IMG/VR virus record: IMGVR_UViG_3300030430_005214
Coordinates: 1 to 64,000 of that record
Direction: 5' to 3' (one strand)
Origin: a virus
Length of the DNA stretch: 64,000 nucleotides
Below the pieces are notes generated by a model. That model made no database searches and had not been told where the DNA came from. It was given only the letters and a program-made list of their open reading frames with translations. Positions 57,727 to 64,000 of the stretch are shown piece by piece; positions within the stretch are counted from its first letter, which is position 1; the number at the start of each line of letters is the position of its first letter. Both the position numbers and the translations under genes were made by a program.

Positions 57727-57994
57727 ATTCTTCCTCTTGTCTTAAGACACGTTGAAAACTTTGGCATTCCTCAACAAGTGCCTTTGAGTGACGAAGCAAA
57801 TTTGCTAAAGTTTCATCTCCATAAAAGCGCTCAAGTCCATTAACAATGTCAATGTGATCTCTATATTCTTCTAATGTTTCACTAAAAGTATCTAATTCAT
57901 CTTGAAAAGTTAAGAATCTTTTTAAAAGTTGAATAACATACCAAATAAAAACAAAGTTAAGAATAATTGAAAGAGCCAAGAAAAGTTGTGTCAT
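57707..57994 (-). CDS. Small membrane protein with N-terminal anchor and acidic helix
   Basis: 95 residues. A hydrophobic anchor (TQLFLALSIILNFVFIWYVI, 2-21) precedes a charged helix (about 27-70) and an acidic end (EEEYAEEEN). The block YGDETLANLLRHSKALVEE (58-76) resembles a conserved sequence in cyanophage T4-likes. It overlaps the zinc-ribbon gene by ATGA and the sigma gene by 20 bases. Role unknown. Confidence 0.72.
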   Translation of the reverse strand: MTQLFLALSIILNFVFIWYVIQLLKRFLTFQDELDTFSETLEEYRDHIDIVNGLERFYGDETLANLLRHSKALVEECQSFQRVLRQEEEYAEEEN

Positions 57995-58239
57995 CTGCTA
58001 TTATCTAGTTCCTTTATTTGGTTTTTAAGGTCCTCTTTAGAGCTTTCAATAAACTCTTTAGTTAAATCACCAGTTTTTTTCTTTTTTGTTTGTTTATTAG
58101 TATTATATGAGAAGTTACTAGGCTTCCGTCCAATGTTTCTTGAAGAACACCATGGGCATTCTTCTATTGTCTCAGACATTAAGTGATTTTCTTTCCACTC
58201 CCCTAAACAATCTCCACACTGATAAACATATATCGGCAA
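57991..58239 (-). CDS. FmdB-like zinc-ribbon protein (TTG start)
   Basis: 82 residues. Start is TTG at 58239 behind AAGGAG at seven bases, giving MPIYVYQC, the usual start of FmdB-type zinc ribbons. CGDC (about 8-11) and CPWC (28-31) make the four-cysteine zinc site. A Lys-rich helical tail follows. The family is called regulatory but lacks a known activity. It lies two genes upstream of the late sigma factor, so a transcription role is an option. Confidence 0.75.
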   Translation of the reverse strand: MPIYVYQCGDCLGEWKENHLMSETIEECPWCSSRNIGRKPSNFSYNTNKQTKKKKTGDLTKEFIESSKEDLKNQIKELDNSR

Positions 58240-58250
58240 TTTTTATCTCC

Positions 58251-58472
58251 TTATTCTGGTTGATCGCAAACAACATCCCAGTCAGCTGTTGTTTCTTCAT
58301 TAAGTTTAACCAATGGCGGGTTCAGTACAACCAAACCCTCTGGTGAACTAGTCATCTTAAACCCCTCTAAAACAGGTACAATATCAGATTGTTCTAATAA
58401 AGATTTTTGTAATGCCATCATAAGTGCACCGATGGCCTGTTTCGATAGGTTTGTGTGTTGTATTTCAGTCAT
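58251..58472 (-). CDS. Small conserved-type hypothetical protein
   Basis: 73 residues, with AATAAGGAGA before ATG. An amphipathic helix (KQAIGALMMALQKSLLEQ, 11-28) followed by DIVPVLEGF and short strands. I recall similar small proteins near gp55 in marine T4-like phages. No function is known to me. Confidence 0.7.
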   Translation of the reverse strand: MTEIQHTNLSKQAIGALMMALQKSLLEQSDIVPVLEGFKMTSSPEGLVVLNPPLVKLNEETTADWDVVCDQPE

Positions 58473-58481
58473 ATTTTCTCC

Positions 58482-59321
58482 TTATTCTTCGCTAATTGCG
58501 CGACCTTTAAGTTGTTCCCAATCTCGTTCGGGTCTAACCTCTAAATTTTTACCCCAAGTAGATTTTAATACCATCGGGTTTACATCAACTTTTTCAGCAA
58601 AGCTGATTAGAGCGTTAACATCTTTTGGAAAACAAGAACCTCCAAAGCCGAACTTACCGTCTGGACCTGGGGAGCTAAAATGAGTTCTCCCTATTCTTTG
58701 ATCGTAAAGACCATACTCTACTACTTTATCATAATCTACGTTAATTTTTTCACATATTTGTCTAATTTCATTAGAAAAACTAACTTTTGTGGCCAAAAAG
58801 CAGTTAGTAAAATACTTTACCATTTCTGCAGTGTTTGAACCAGTCTTTATAATAGATGCTGATGGATAGCATTTTCTATAGAGATTTTTCACTTTTGTTG
58901 TTCCTGGTCTTGGGCCTCCGATGATAACTCTATTTTGATTTTTAAAATCATCAATAAAGTTTGCCTCCGTTAGAAACTCAGGGTTAAAAATAACTTGTAA
59001 GTTTTGGCACTCCTTGTTAAATTTTTCTGTTGTTCCGGGTAAAACGGTTGACTTTATAACAGCAATATTGTTATTGTTAAAAGAATTTAATTTATAGATT
59101 GTGTTTGAAACTATTGATAAATCACATTCTCCATTTTTTCTCATCGGTGTTGGCAAACAAACAAATATTATTTCTGCTTTTTCGCTTAATTCTTCTAAAG
59201 AGTTGCAAGTTGATTGTTTAAATTTATCATAAGTTTCAATATTAACAAAATTTTTAAAGCCTTCTCGTATCGCCGTGCCGACAAAACCTTGTCCGATTAC
59301 CCCAATAGTATTATTGTCCAC
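58482..59321 (-). CDS. UDP-sugar 6-dehydrogenase, WbpA/Ugd family, short form (GTG start)
   Basis: 279 residues, GTG start at 59321 with GAGGAG upstream. N-terminal NAD fold: VIGQGFVG (8-15), KSTVLPGTT (90-98). Central domain: FNPEFLTEA (112-120), MVKYFTN (167-173; Lys169) and GFGGSCFPKD (225-234) with the catalytic Cys230. It would oxidise the C6 of a UDP-hexose (glucose or GlcNAc) to the uronic acid. Usual members are 390-450 residues; the C-terminal UDP-binding domain is absent, so the protein ends about 45 residues after the catalytic Cys. It is the last gene of the sugar operon, overlapping the epimerase by 11 bases. Confidence 0.88.
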   Translation of the reverse strand: MDNNTIGVIGQGFVGTAIREGFKNFVNIETYDKFKQSTCNSLEELSEKAEIIFVCLPTPMRKNGECDLSIVSNTIYKLNSFNNNNIAVIKSTVLPGTTEKFNKECQNLQVIFNPEFLTEANFIDDFKNQNRVIIGGPRPGTTKVKNLYRKCYPSASIIKTGSNTAEMVKYFTNCFLATKVSFSNEIRQICEKINVDYDKVVEYGLYDQRIGRTHFSSPGPDGKFGFGGSCFPKDVNALISFAEKVDVNPMVLKSTWGKNLEVRPERDWEQLKGRAISEE

Positions 59322-60174
59322 CTTTCAACTCCTCAAAACAATTGTTTATTCCTGCTTGGATTCCAACTTTAGCTTTCCACCCAAGATCTCTTAAAGGACC
59401 AATATCTGCCTTGGTTAACATAACATCGCCTTTTCTATTCTCAACATAATCAAATTTTAAATCAGGAAAATGATTTTGAATTATTTGTTTAATTTCATTT
59501 AACGAAATATTGCTACCGGTGCCGACATCAAAGTTTTGTCCACAAAAATCTTGTGTATACTCCATTGCAAAGATATTTGCACTAACAACATCAGATACAT
59601 GCACCATATCTCTTCTTTGCTCTCCATCGCCAGTAATATAAGGTGTTTTGTTTTCTCTTATTGTTTTCATCCAACTAGCAATAGCGGTTGCATAAGGTCC
59701 ATCTGCTTTCTGATCTTCTGAATATACATTAAAGTATCGTAAAGACACTGTATCAACGCCGTATAAGTCAGCGTACAGTTTACATTCCATTTCCGAAACC
59801 AGCTTTTGTAGTGCATATGGACTTGCAGGGCCGCTGCCGTTTCCAACCACCGAAGAAGAGCTGGAATAGATAACTCTTTTTGCGCCCATATGCTTGGCAA
59901 AGTTTAAAACATTGCTAGCCGCTAGTACATTGTTTTCCATGGTCAGTATCGGATTTTCAACACTATACGCCACGCGGGGAAAACAAGCTAAATGAAAAAT
60001 GTATTCTGGTTTAAAATTAAAATAAGCCGGATGAAATTTTTCTCTTAAATCATTCAGGATATTATGATCTTCAACAAGATCGATGCCCATGACTTCGTGA
60101 CCCAAATCTTTTAACTTTTTATACAAGTGAGAGCCAATATACCCTTTGTGTCCCGTTACTAAACATTTAGCCAT
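59311..60174 (-). CDS. NAD-dependent sugar epimerase (extended SDR, GalE/WbpP-like)
   Basis: 287 residues. NAD motif GHKGYIG (8-14), SSSSSV (104-109) and the SDR catalytic pair in SPYALQK (118-124; Tyr120, Lys124). LRYFNVYSEDQ (145-155) and a C-terminal MVHVSDV fit the UDP-glucose/UDP-GlcNAc 4-epimerase group. Family members are usually 310-340 residues, so it is slightly short. It would interconvert UDP-glucose/galactose type sugars, or 4-epimerise the GlcNAc derivative feeding the uronic acid route. The exact substrate cannot be fixed from sequence. It is packed between the aminotransferase and the dehydrogenase. Confidence 0.88.
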   Translation of the reverse strand: MAKCLVTGHKGYIGSHLYKKLKDLGHEVMGIDLVEDHNILNDLREKFHPAYFNFKPEYIFHLACFPRVAYSVENPILTMENNVLAASNVLNFAKHMGAKRVIYSSSSSVVGNGSGPASPYALQKLVSEMECKLYADLYGVDTVSLRYFNVYSEDQKADGPYATAIASWMKTIRENKTPYITGDGEQRRDMVHVSDVVSANIFAMEYTQDFCGQNFDVGTGSNISLNEIKQIIQNHFPDLKFDYVENRKGDVMLTKADIGPLRDLGWKAKVGIQAGINNCFEELKGGQ

Positions 60175-60175
60175 T

Positions 60176-60979
60176 TTATTTCCTCTCTCTAATACTTTTT
60201 GCTACTTGTTCTGAAATTGGACAATCTCCAGTAATGCCAAGTTTTTTATATATCGGCTGGTCGTATACAACTCTTGGATAGTGTCCTTTTTCGGGTCCTC
60301 TTAATCCTAACTCTGCTTTTACACCAGTCATATGTAATTTCATTTGTTCTAGAGCCATCAAGCACAAGGGCTCTGCTAGTCTAAAATTAAAGCCTATATA
60401 TTCGTGATTATATTTTCCTACTTGACCTTGATCGCATATAGATCTAATTTTCTTATGATCAAGTTTCGATCCTTTTGGGATGCATATCATTCCACCTTCA
60501 AACGTAGATATGTTTTTGGTTTTGTAAAAAGAAAACGTTCCACAATCAGCCAGCATTCCTGCAAATTTACCACAATGACATTCGGCACCAAAAGCTTGAG
60601 CCGTATCTTCAATAACAACAAGGTCATGTTTTTTTGCGATCTCGTTTATTTTCTCCATTTCACACACCCTACCGTATAGGTGAACTGGTATGATTGCTTT
60701 TGTTTTGGGAGTTATTGCAGCCTCTATTTTTTTAGGATCTAACAAATATGTGTTTGGGTCTATATCGACGAATACTGGTTTTGCACCAGCAATTAATATT
60801 GCATTACTAGTGGCTATAAAAGTAAAAGGAGTTGTGATTACTTCATCTCCTGGTTGTAAATCTAGTGACCACAAAGGAGCGATTAGGGCTGCTGTGCCAT
60901 TATTGACAGCTATACAATCTTCTAGATCAAATCTCTCTTTTACATATTCTTCAAATATATTTCTAATAACTACCGGCAT
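60176..60979 (-). CDS. DegT/DnrJ/EryC1-type PLP aminotransferase, compact form
   Basis: 267 residues against 360-390 for the family. Conserved parts: NNGTAALIAPLWSL (26-39), GDEVITTPFTF (44-54), VHLYGR (99-104), EDTAQAFGAE (124-133), and SFYKTKNISTFEGG (150-163) with the PLP lysine, probably Lys155. After LEQMK (210-214) the sequence jumps to a family-like end (HYPRVVYDQPIYKKLG, then CPISEQVAKSI), so about 80-100 residues of the small domain and the last 30 residues are missing. The N-terminus also starts about 25 residues late, directly after the preceding stop. It should transaminate the 3-keto-sugar (as WbpE), but these losses put activity in question. Confidence 0.85.
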   Translation of the reverse strand: MPVVIRNIFEEYVKERFDLEDCIAVNNGTAALIAPLWSLDLQPGDEVITTPFTFIATSNAILIAGAKPVFVDIDPNTYLLDPKKIEAAITPKTKAIIPVHLYGRVCEMEKINEIAKKHDLVVIEDTAQAFGAECHCGKFAGMLADCGTFSFYKTKNISTFEGGMICIPKGSKLDHKKIRSICDQGQVGKYNHEYIGFNFRLAEPLCLMALEQMKLHMTGVKAELGLRGPEKGHYPRVVYDQPIYKKLGITGDCPISEQVAKSIRERK

Positions 60980-60980
60980 T

Positions 60981-61460
60981 TTAACCTCTTAAAATTTTTG
61001 CTGGGTTTCCTACGACTACTGTATCTGGTGGGACGTTCTTTGTTACAACAGAACCGGCGCCAACTAAAGATCTTTCACCGATTACATTGCCACAGACTAT
61101 AGTGGAATTAGCGCCAACACTACAACCCTCTTTAAATAATGTTTTTCTAAATCGATCTTTCCAATCACCAGTTGCTGTTGGTCTTATGTCGTTTGTTGTA
61201 ACCACATTTGGTCCGATAAAAACATTATTCTCTATTGTGACGCCTTCATATATTATTGAGTTGTTTTGTATTTTTACATTATCTCCAATAATGACATTAT
61301 TGCCTATATGTACGCCCTCTCCAATTATACAATTATTTCCTATTTTTGCACCACTCATAACATGAGAGAATGCCCATATTTTTGTATTCTCTCCAATTTG
61401 CGCGCCACTATCAAGTATTGAAGTTTCATGTAAAAAGTATTTTTTTTCCGCTGTAGGCAT
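60981..61460 (-). CDS. Sugar N-acetyltransferase, WbpD/WlbB-like left-handed beta-helix
   Basis: 159 residues built of hexapeptide repeats (IGENTKIWAFSHV, IGNNCIIGEGVHIG, IGDNVKIQ, IENNVFIGPNVV, and so on) ending with GAGSVVTKNVPPDTVVVGNPAK (134-155), typical of acetyltransferases. The loop after DIRPTATGDWKDRF and NTKIWAFSHV matches WbpD-type enzymes, which acetylate the 3-amino group of UDP-GlcNAc3NA. Position directly before the aminotransferase fits that order. The ATG at 61460 has no clear ribosome site; AAAGAG sits before an out-of-frame ATG, so expression may be weak or coupled. Confidence 0.82.
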   Translation of the reverse strand: MPTAEKKYFLHETSILDSGAQIGENTKIWAFSHVMSGAKIGNNCIIGEGVHIGNNVIIGDNVKIQNNSIIYEGVTIENNVFIGPNVVTTNDIRPTATGDWKDRFRKTLFKEGCSVGANSTIVCGNVIGERSLVGAGSVVTKNVPPDTVVVGNPAKILRG

Positions 61461-61491
61461 TAAACAATTGTAACATGACGCTCTTTAAAAT

Positions 61492-62214
61492 TTAAATTTC
61501 CCAAATTATTTTTTTATGCTTTTTCTTTTTAAATCTTTTTATTTTTAAATGTTCAAAGTAGCAATCTTTATGAGCAAACATTTTATATTTTCCATCTTTA
61601 ACAATTCTATAGCTTATTTGGTGATCAGAGGCTCCTCCGGTGCTGCGGTTCCCGTAAGTATATAATCCATATTCTTGCAGGACATGTCTTTTAAATGACG
61701 TTAAAGAAAAGCCAATTCCATAAGTTTCGAAAATATCCTCTTCTATATTTTCCATTAAATACTTACGTGTATATTTTGCATGATCAATATTTTCTTCATG
61801 TGGGTACCATGGATAATCTGTTTTTCTAGGAGATTTGGTTGGACCTCTTAATGTTAGTTTATTACCCCATTTAGCAGGTAAAACATTAATTTGTTTCGAA
61901 TTGGGATTTAAATTGCAATACCCGGTTAGCACATCATATTTTTTATTGTTATTTACAATTACATCAATATTTTTTTGATTTATAATCACATCATCAGATA
62001 TTAATATGTAGTTTTGATATATTGGTGCTACATCTAAGTCGCTTCCGTTTTTGCTAATATTTTCGCCATTCACTATTTTCATAATGGATGATAAGGCATC
62101 CCTTTCATTAAACCCACTTATCCAAACTTTTGGAATGGCCACGCTTTTAAGAGAATCTACACAGACCTTTTCATCTCTTGGGTTTAAAATTACTAAAAGA
62201 TCTTTATTTGACAT
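61492..62214 (-). CDS. Glycosyltransferase-like protein (GT-A type, family uncertain)
   Basis: 240 residues, ATG at 62214 with AAGGAG. A nucleotide-sugar-type beginning (LLVILNPRDEK), then ILISDDVIINQ (70-80), where Asp74-Asp75 may be the metal site, and a C-terminal acceptor-like region (GASDHQISYRIVKDGKYKMFAHKDCYFEHLK region, about 195-225) as in GT2-like enzymes. Short for a family-2 enzyme and highly basic at the end (KKKKHKK). It would transfer a sugar made by the surrounding enzymes. Donor and acceptor unknown. Confidence 0.6.
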   Translation of the reverse strand: MSNKDLLVILNPRDEKVCVDSLKSVAIPKVWISGFNERDALSSIMKIVNGENISKNGSDLDVAPIYQNYILISDDVIINQKNIDVIVNNNKKYDVLTGYCNLNPNSKQINVLPAKWGNKLTLRGPTKSPRKTDYPWYPHEENIDHAKYTRKYLMENIEEDIFETYGIGFSLTSFKRHVLQEYGLYTYGNRSTGGASDHQISYRIVKDGKYKMFAHKDCYFEHLKIKRFKKKKHKKIIWEI

Positions 62215-62221
62215 GAGTTCG

Positions 62222-62260
62222 CTCCTTAATTAGCATTAGCCTATTAGCTAATTAATTAGC
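62222..62260 (-). repeat. Four GCTAAT repeats and a 14-bp palindrome before the glycosyltransferase gene
   Basis: On the coding strand this stretch has four GCTAAT words in 39 bases, ending in the ribosome site AAGGAG. The first is part of the perfect palindrome GCTAATTAATTAGC (62247-62260), which overlaps the stop of the small ORF upstream. It may be an operator, a promoter part or a slippage-born repeat. Confidence 0.45.
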
Positions 62261-62403
62261 GATGATGAAGCAGTTATATCCTCTAATCTTACAGTTTCTG
62301 GGAAATGTTTTTCTATGTTATTCGTATAATCAAACCTTGTTTGTCTAACAAAGTTATTAAAACTTTTATAATTAGCTTGATTTATAAAATTAATTTTCAC
62401 CAT
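62248..62403 (-). CDS. Possible 51-residue protein coupled to the glycosyltransferase
   Basis: ATG at 62403 lies in TGATG overlap with the upstream glycosyltransferase stop and runs 51 codons to TAG at 62248. The peptide is Asn/Phe/Thr-rich (MVKINFINQANYKSFNNFVR, then ETVRLEDITASSS). Without it a 188-base gap would be left in a packed operon. It may be a small real protein or the remnant of a longer gene, since the sequence resembles the start of an enzyme cut short. No family recognised. Confidence 0.5.
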   Translation of the reverse strand: MVKINFINQANYKSFNNFVRQTRFDYTNNIEKHFPETVRLEDITASSSLIN

Positions 62404-63236
62404 CAAACCTCATATTCATACTTTGAAAAAAAGTTAACCTTTTCTAAATATTTTTTATTTTTCCATTTTGTATGTCCTTTTGCAAACCATATTTTATTAT
62501 TATCGCCAAATAAGGTATCACAATAGGGATTTAAATCTCTAGGAGTGTTTATGGCAGTTTCCATTTTTATTTTTACGTTGTTTTCCATTTGATAATTAAT
62601 TACAGATTTAACAAAATAGTTCATATCTGAAAATGTTTTGTTCATTGAGTCAGTGTTTTCTATTAATTTTATCCAACGATTGATAATATCAATACACACT
62701 TGATTCTTTCTCATTGCATGTGTTCCCAATAGAACAACTTTACCAGTTGTTGTTTTTAGTATATCATCAATACTGTTACCTTGTTCAACTAACATTTGTA
62801 CATCGTTTATACCACAAACTTTTTTTGGCTCAAGTGAAAATATATTATTTTTAGAGCGTTCTAAAAAAACAAAATCATTATGATCTAAGTGTTCTTCAAT
62901 GTAATTTAGATTATCGAACACAATGCCGTTGGCGCCAAAAGTACAAAGCTTTCCACTTTTACTATTTTTTAAAAGTTCAAGGAAAAGTCTTGGCCTATAG
63001 TTTCTGTAAAATTCTATTTTGTTATGAACATTGAAATTATTATTTTCTGAACTAGTTCTGATAAAATTTATTTTTGTATCTTTAGAAAACTTATTTTTTA
63101 CATTATAAAAGTCTTTATCAGTAAAGTCAAGTAAATTAAAGTGTATTAAGTTTTTATTCCCATGATATCTAATGCTTCTTATTAAAGCATTTGCAAATTT
63201 AAAATACTTTGGGTCGCACCAAGTTAAGATCTCCAT
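62403..63236 (-). CDS. Glycosyltransferase-like protein, GT8-like layout
   Basis: 277 residues from ATG 63236, which lies in a TAATG overlap with the oxidoreductase stop; the open frame extends 15 codons further upstream, but that would overlap it. The protein has a Rossmann-like start (EILTWCDPKYFKFANALIRS), RPRLFLELLK (81-90), then CTFGANGIVFDNL (98-110). That position normally carries a DxD metal motif; here it reads GAN, lacking both aspartates. The helical C-terminal part is unremarkable. It probably adds a sugar to a glycan, unless inactive. Confidence 0.6.
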   Translation of the reverse strand: MEILTWCDPKYFKFANALIRSIRYHGNKNLIHFNLLDFTDKDFYNVKNKFSKDTKINFIRTSSENNNFNVHNKIEFYRNYRPRLFLELLKNSKSGKLCTFGANGIVFDNLNYIEEHLDHNDFVFLERSKNNIFSLEPKKVCGINDVQMLVEQGNSIDDILKTTTGKVVLLGTHAMRKNQVCIDIINRWIKLIENTDSMNKTFSDMNYFVKSVINYQMENNVKIKMETAINTPRDLNPYCDTLFGDNNKIWFAKGHTKWKNKKYLEKVNFFSKYEYEV

Positions 63237-64000
63237 TATGAAACCATCTCTAAGGCCGACAAAGCATGAACAATATGACATCCTGTTGGTTGTTCACCCC
63301 TCACAAACTTTACAAAACTATGCAATTCTTCATAAAGAGGTTCGCTTTTTTCTACAGGCACTGCTTCACATTCACCGGTGTATGAAATATATTGTATTTC
63401 TTGCTTAATATAATCTAGAAAATATTTACCTTCGTTACATATTAATTCAAGTGTTCTAATTTTTTCTGGTTCAACCCAAGAAGCTTCAGACAGCAGTATT
63501 GTATTTTGATCGTTTTTATATTTACAGATTAAAGTTGCGTAATCGGTTTTATTATCATCTCTGGTTTTATTAGTGTATAAAGAGTGATCATCAAATTTAG
63601 AATCAATAAGATAATTAGCAACATCTGCATCGTGCACTAATAAATCTAAATTGACATAATCAGATGAGCGAGCAACAAAGTTCCCCAATCTTCTAGTTCT
63701 TATTAAATTAATACCGGTAATTTTTTTTTCGTCAATCATTGATTTTAATTTTTGTACAGCAGGATTAAATCTTTCAATGTGCCCAACAAATATATTTTTA
63801 GAGTATACCAGTAACTTTAGTGCTTTTATTCTATCATCGTCAATTGGCTTTTCTATAAAAAGTTTTAAATTTTTATTAATTTTTAACAATTCTAAAGATA
63901 TATCAACGTGTTTGTCACTTGGTGCACAAATCAATACCGCATCTAATTCGTTTATTTGATCCAAAAAAAGTTCTTTATCATTATATTTTTCTATATTGGG
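63236..64000 (-). CDS. Gfo/Idh/MocA-family oxidoreductase, WbpB/WlbA-like (partial, right edge)
   Basis: The open frame reaches base 64000 with no start needed; 254 residues are visible. It lacks the N-terminal GxGxxG but has DAVLICAPSDKHVDISLELL (about 18-37) and LFIEKPI with the family EKP motif, then VGHIERFNPAV and a C-terminal domain. These enzymes oxidise sugars with NAD; in the diacetamido-uronate route WbpB oxidises the 3-hydroxyl of UDP-GlcNAcA before transamination. The neighbouring aminotransferase, acetyltransferase and dehydrogenase make this reading likely. It ends at TAATG with the glycosyltransferase. Confidence 0.82.
   Translation of the reverse strand, partial: PNIEKYNDKELFLDQINELDAVLICAPSDKHVDISLELLKINKNLKLFIEKPIDDDRIKALKLLVYSKNIFVGHIERFNPAVQKLKSMIDEKKITGINLIRTRRLGNFVARSSDYVNLDLLVHDADVANYLIDSKFDDHSLYTNKTRDDNKTDYATLICKYKNDQNTILLSEASWVEPEKIRTLELICNEGKYFLDYIKQEIQYISYTGECEAVPVEKSEPLYEELHSFVKFVRGEQPTGCHIVHALSALEMVS

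Follow-up and report, generated by a model that had tools for sequence, protein, structure and literature searches.

The window analysed here, a stretch of 64,000 nucleotides comprising bases 1-64000 of a 104,242-base (104-kb) IMG/VR virus record, belongs to a large tailed phage, as indicated by the terminase, portal and tail genes of the record. It carries a Gfo/Idh oxidase, a compact DegT aminotransferase and a WbpD/WlbB-like acetyltransferase that together are a real functional unit. We propose that the oxidase would act on C3 of UDP-GlcNAc, that the aminotransferase would place an amino group on the carbon so oxidized, and that the hexapeptide enzyme would acetylate the new amine to yield UDP-2,3-diacetamido-2,3-dideoxy-D-glucose, a neutral product. 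A short dehydrogenase and the neighboring SDR protein would constitute a second unit, probably converting UDP-glucose to UDP-glucuronate and its 4-epimer, and glycosyltransferases encoded in the same cassette would transfer the sugars, within the host cytoplasm, onto an acceptor of phage or host origin, either a virion protein or a host surface precursor. The substrates, stereochemistry, acceptor and biological role in this scheme are those suggested by enzyme families, gene linkage, conservation and subfamily placement, and we assign the explanation as a whole a probability of roughly 0.6.

The genes between positions 58482 and 64000 form one nearly contiguous operon on the minus strand, and a plausible ribosome-binding site and a 50-codon open reading frame occupy the sole larger intergenic gap. 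In transcription order they encode a Gfo/Idh/MocA oxidoreductase of probable UDP-GlcNAc 3-dehydrogenase (GnnA/archaeal) type (63236..64000 in the window, 63236-64108 and 290 aa in the complete record; PF01408), possible glycosyltransferases of 292 aa (62403..63281) and 240 aa (61492..62214), the hexapeptide N-acetyltransferase (60981..61460; PF00132), the compact DegT/DnrJ/EryC1/StrS aminotransferase (60176..60979; PF01041, 259 bits), an SDR epimerase resembling GalE, WbpP and UDP-GlcA 4-epimerase (59311..60174; PF01370), and a short UDP-glucose 6-dehydrogenase-like protein (58482..59321; PF00984/PF03721). All of these Pfam matches are far above chance, and they bear out an initial annotation of this DNA in placing four enzyme families in one coupled gene set and in recognizing an SDR epimerase. 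That annotation also described the 292-aa and 240-aa products as glycosyltransferase-like, a label that rests on weak motifs, and neither protein matches any Pfam, PHROG or NCBIfam family. A PDB search with the 240-aa protein gave no match, and one relative of it adjoins the compact aminotransferase in another locus (L014). The annotation overlooked that two of the enzymes, the aminotransferase with 267 aa and the dehydrogenase with 279 aa, are shortened. The window end at 64000 cuts the Gfo/Idh gene and with it the operon, and the remaining sequence of the record was analysed as well.

Close cellular relatives of the aminotransferase usually have 360-380 residues (about 370), and alignment with them reveals that the phage protein is missing ~40 N-terminal residues, a ~60-residue block before the HYP motif and ~27 C-terminal residues, the latter two losses leaving its C-terminal small domain incomplete. 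Full copies of this short form occur in about 25 further IMG/VR contigs (72-86% identity), which led us to reject a frameshift or assembly error as its source, and a 527-kb phage contig encodes it with 56% identity. We could score 79 of the 80 nearest cellular relatives, of which 78 are longer (316-568 aa). In the single exception, L170, the genes are arranged as in phage loci L027 and L028 and the oxidase sequence is shared with a phage locus, so that mis-binning of a phage contig is the most probable explanation. On these grounds we rejected a cellular origin of the compact protein, for which L170 was the sole case, and none of the 79 scored relatives is a compact form in a clearly cellular genome. 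In isolated phages, relatives of the protein all fall below 60% identity, and those with annotation that we inspected are full length.

The genes that accompany the compact aminotransferase are strongly nonrandom. A Gfo/Idh gene is found within three genes of it in 19 of 26 deduplicated loci, versus 5.9 expected (a count reached in 0 of 2000 within-locus permutations), and a hexapeptide gene is nearby in 7 of the 26, versus 2.9 expected (15 of 2000 permutations). Full-length DegT proteins of the same loci have an SDR partner (52 of 69, versus 35 expected) and exhibit no pairing with Gfo/Idh. When all 28 compact-DegT loci are considered, a hexapeptide enzyme adjoins in 10, a formyltransferase is adjacent or one gene off in 5, no locus has both, and 13 have neither nearby; acetyl- and formyltransferase thus appear to be two alternative acylations of the new amine. 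This partner pattern is the one expected of an oxidation-amination-acylation module acting at one carbon. The nearest cellular relatives of the aminotransferase lie beside Gfo/Idh genes in 34 of 79 cases and beside hexapeptide genes in 20 of 79.

The complete oxidase scores 175 bits against NF040723, the UDP-GlcNAc 3-dehydrogenase family, for which the curated cut-off is 450, and its next best family is IolG at 67. For comparison, the chain of 7bvj, which we take to be GnnA, scores 155 against NF040723, and the WlbA-type enzyme L180 (531 bits against 3q2k) reaches 110 and has its best match in a different family. We likewise took the archaeal UDP-GlcNAc 3-dehydrogenases to have the substrates generally ascribed to them. 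The initial annotation had classed the oxidase as WbpB type, with the proviso that a grouping elsewhere in a tree would break the pathway it envisioned, and our tree places the protein elsewhere. Forcing it into the WlbA clade makes the best tree 73 log units worse, a placement rejected by the AU test (p=4.1e-6), and WlbA was not found among the PDB matches of the window oxidase. Its sequence carries the lysine of FIEKP and the histidine of VHDAD. Several cellular Gfo/Idh genes on the GnnA-like side of the tree (L210, L212, L213 and L228) adjoin UDP-HexNAc dehydrogenases, so some enzymes on this side may use UDP-GlcNAcA. Since the window oxidase sits on a long branch and has tree neighbors with an adjacent dehydrogenase, the comparison makes UDP-GlcNAc the likelier substrate, short of proof. 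No close relatives of this oxidase were found in IMG/VR, only more distant ones, which lie beside the aminotransferase.

Alternatively, the module might act on a hexose other than GlcNAc and produce a 3-amino-3-deoxy sugar nucleotide that would be N-acetylated in some phages and N-formylated in others. Such a scheme would agree with the formyltransferases that stand in for the acetyltransferase at some loci, with a second, divergent Gfo/Idh clade that partners the compact aminotransferase in other phages, and with the top PDB matches of the aminotransferase, which include both 4- and 3-aminotransferases (perosamine synthase, QdtB and WbpE). However, among named families the oxidase fits UDP-GlcNAc 3-dehydrogenase best, and the acetyltransferase is nearest WlbB (top PDB match 3mqg, 146 bits, 47% identity over 146 aa), and we consider a different hexose unlikely. 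The WlbB match also makes a WbpD-type label reasonable for the acetyltransferase. For the aminotransferase, the WbpE-type label given initially is reasonable insofar as the two proteins share ancestry (3nu7, 150 bits), although perosamine synthase gives the stronger match (171 bits) and the phage protein is compact.

The dehydrogenase had been called WbpA type, a description that its sequence contradicts. The NAD-binding and central domains are present, the UDP-binding domain PF03720 is absent, and a search across the whole record found no separately coded PF03720 domain. Scores for AglM (154) and TuaD (141) far exceed those for WecC (55) and an archaeal UDP-ManNAc dehydrogenase (61 bits), whereas the dehydrogenase of a true WlbA operon gives the reverse order (WecC 250, AglM 164, TuaD 112), and in cellular loci that combine Gfo/Idh and DegT genes the dehydrogenases favor the UDP-HexNAc class over the UDP-glucose class. 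The short protein is a conserved viral family, with relatives in 80 loci that are short in 77; the catalytic Cys230 and its neighbors are invariant in 34 aligned sequences, and a confident structure model corresponds to the two leading domains of a UDP-glucose dehydrogenase. An SDR gene adjoins it in 40 of 75 cases, versus 22 expected. The compact aminotransferase was not found in any of the 40 dehydrogenase records, in which longer reading frames gave at most weak or partial matches to it, and 17 of 28 compact-DegT records lack the short dehydrogenase; the records are fragments and such absences are soft, although several of the 40 are longer than 130 kb. The dehydrogenase is most readily assigned to the UDP-glucose class and to a unit separate from the three-gene module. 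Because it is of this class, lacks the UDP-binding domain, lies beside an SDR gene and is independent of the module, a neutral UDP-2,3-diacetamido-2,3-dideoxyglucose and a separate UDP-uronic acid would be the likelier products.

These observations bear directly on the route originally envisaged, wherein the four enzymes act in series to make acidic UDP-GlcNAc3NAcA as in the Wbp pathway. The four families do share one operon, and UGDH, Gfo/Idh, hexapeptide and DegT genes also occur together in cellular operons, for example L228 and L180. Nevertheless, the class and missing domain of the dehydrogenase, the position of the oxidase outside WlbA, and the lack of linkage between dehydrogenase and compact aminotransferase in related viruses make this series quite improbable. 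What survives of the original claim is the linkage of C3 oxidation, transamination and N-acetylation, and with it phage synthesis of a 2,3-diamino sugar nucleotide; for the acidic product we found no support. A WbpI-type 2-epimerase, which the initial annotation proposed to look for beyond position 64000, is absent from the whole 104-kb record. The presence of the dehydrogenase and the three-gene module in one operon of the window is a point against the two-unit explanation that we prefer.

Several features indicate that the compact aminotransferase would be catalytic. The PLP lysine K154 together with D124 and Q127 is invariant in 25 sequences, the HYP...QP.Y loop is retained, and the entire protein is under strong purifying selection, with pairwise dN of 0.10-0.16 and dS that exceeds 2 or is saturated. 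An AlphaFold model (pLDDT 82, pTM 0.85; low confidence in the lysine loop) structurally matches perosamine synthase, WbpE and QdtB, and 8y96 as well. It is very doubtful that the protein is no catalyst by itself and serves as a regulatory or complementing partner of the full-length DegT (390 aa, record 69768-70940), since, despite the ~100 missing residues, the uncertain lysine loop of the model and the existence of hetero-oligomeric DegT pairs such as 8y96, its catalytic residues are nearly invariant, selection acts on its whole length and several loci have no other DegT within ~10 kb.

More broadly, and at somewhat less than even odds, phages may possess a nucleotide-sugar aminotransferase that they themselves evolved to a minimal size of ~267 residues. 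Such an enzyme would dispense with most of the C-terminal domain of its cellular relatives and form the core of interchangeable 3-amino-sugar modules (N-acetyl in some phages, N-formyl in others), carried in serotype-like cassettes that decorate virions or host surfaces. Known systems resemble parts of this arrangement. The Wbp pathway of Pseudomonas and Bordetella proceeds through WbpA, WbpB, WbpE and WbpD (PMC10622841), and the phage genes share with it Gfo/Idh oxidation at C3, DegT amination and hexapeptide N-acetylation, with an aminotransferase near WbpE and an acetyltransferase near WlbB. In contrast to that pathway, the phage oxidase falls outside the WlbA clade, the dehydrogenase is of the UDP-glucose class, lacks the C-terminal domain and is unlinked, there is no WbpI, and the aminotransferase is ~100 residues shorter. 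GnnA and GnnB of Acidithiobacillus convert UDP-GlcNAc in two steps (PMC8036547). With these enzymes and the archaeal UDP-GlcNAc 3-dehydrogenase cluster, the phage module has in common the probable oxidase class, the partner aminotransferase and a presumed start from UDP-GlcNAc without prior C6 oxidation. It differs from GnnA/GnnB in being a phage operon with a compact aminotransferase and an additional N-acetyltransferase. An N-acetyltransferase is known from archaeal UDP-GlcNAc 3-dehydrogenase clusters also.

Metagenomic surveys have listed gnnA and wbpE as viral auxiliary metabolic genes (PMC12783922) and have reported a viral wbpD (PMC13211439); these are the same enzyme types, but the passages on them list single genes and mention no linkage, compact form or subfamily placement. 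Glycan or LPS clusters of cyanophages and pelagiphages likewise combine nucleotide-sugar enzymes, DegT proteins and glycosyltransferases in one phage region, although their gene content differs and their aminotransferases are full length. In the open-access literature we found no description of so short an aminotransferase, of its stable association with Gfo/Idh, or of the alternation of acetyl- and formyltransferases. The present analysis corrects an attractive pathway claim and narrows the choice of assays. Moreover, a compact, strongly conserved, virus-specific aminotransferase could reveal the smallest DegT fold that still supports catalysis. The swappable glycan locus, which is organized in the manner of a bacterial O-antigen locus, prompts a further question that can be tested, namely which molecules these phages decorate with sugars.

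The sugar genes extend on the minus strand from 58482 to ~76606 of the record (~76.6 kb) with no clear break, amounting to ~20 genes in ~18 kb. In relatives, one side is flanked by PhoH, a PD-(D/E)XK nuclease and two GT4 proteins, and the other by a 73-aa protein, a Zn-ribbon protein, a 95-aa protein, a sigma-like protein and a 98-aa protein. On the latter side the conserved flank begins here with the 73-aa protein (58251..58472, minus strand), which has the same position in L015, L016 and L036, followed by the Zn-ribbon protein (57991..58239, minus strand; PF09723 slightly below cut-off), the order being kept in relatives. Between these constant flanks the sugar genes differ from relative to relative, and the whole cluster is a variable, swappable glycan-biosynthesis cassette between conserved phage genes. 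A simple hydropathy scan predicted no membrane protein (exporter, flippase or polymerase) in the cassette, so either host machinery would have to export or polymerize the glycan, or its acceptor would be cytoplasmic, such as a virion protein.

The initial annotation also proposed to look beyond position 64000 for further transferases, and the cluster does encode them there. Two GT4 glycosyltransferases (record 75.3-76.6 and 74.1-75.3 kb), recognized by family matches, come first in transcription order, all on the minus strand, and are followed by the GT2 protein, a GT4-like protein, a CMP-sugar transferase and the full-length DegT. A possible GT42-like protein upstream had no match in a PDB search. 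Next are an AroB-related cyclase (TIGR04425, 438 bits, cut-off 400), a GmhA-like SIS isomerase, a protein without assigned family, a second CMP-sugar transferase, a KdsA (Kdo-8-P synthase) homologue, a small HAD-like protein, another protein without assigned family and an FkbM methyltransferase, after which the Gfo/Idh gene opens the final stretch described above. Kdo-like and cyclitol-like modules are present upstream within the cluster.

A single phage cluster, at 63.2-76.6 kb of the record, combines Kdo-like and cyclitol-like modules. Upstream of the window end, this part of the operon (L002:9237-20000 and L003:65-2607, in two stretches of the same record) carries one KdsA homologue, two CMP-sugar transferases, an SIS isomerase and a small HAD-like protein. 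It also encodes a DegT aminotransferase of full length and a cyclase related to AroB (TIGR04425). Two proteins encoded there (L002:10972-11685 and L002:13411-14112) resemble GT42 sialyltransferases by eye; one of the two gave only a weak MptE-like match, under its cut-off, and had no match in the PDB. Within the window, an ORF of about 50 codons with a GTG start (62250-62400, minus strand) separates the two unassigned glycosyltransferase-like genes.

Among loci with relatives of the compact DegT aminotransferase, L012 has a formyltransferase (L012:9287-9997) adjoining or close to the compact DegT gene, and the hexapeptide acetyltransferase is missing. A formyltransferase is similarly placed, again without the acetyltransferase, in L011, L013, L015 and L146. 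The gene order of phage loci L027 and L028 recurs, with an identical Gfo/Idh oxidase sequence, in a 10.9-kb contig labelled Alphaproteobacteria MAG LLD_269 (L170); this contig probably comes from a phage and was assigned to the bacterial genome during binning.

Elsewhere in the record, a phage adenylosuccinate synthetase of 336 aa (L003:12065-13075), shorter than cellular PurA, retains the GDCGKGK motif and scores up to 279 bits with PurA models versus 139 with PurZ. The phage genome also bears a lipoprotein-like protein (L003:13118-14986) with a VWA domain and MopE-type metal-binding repeats.
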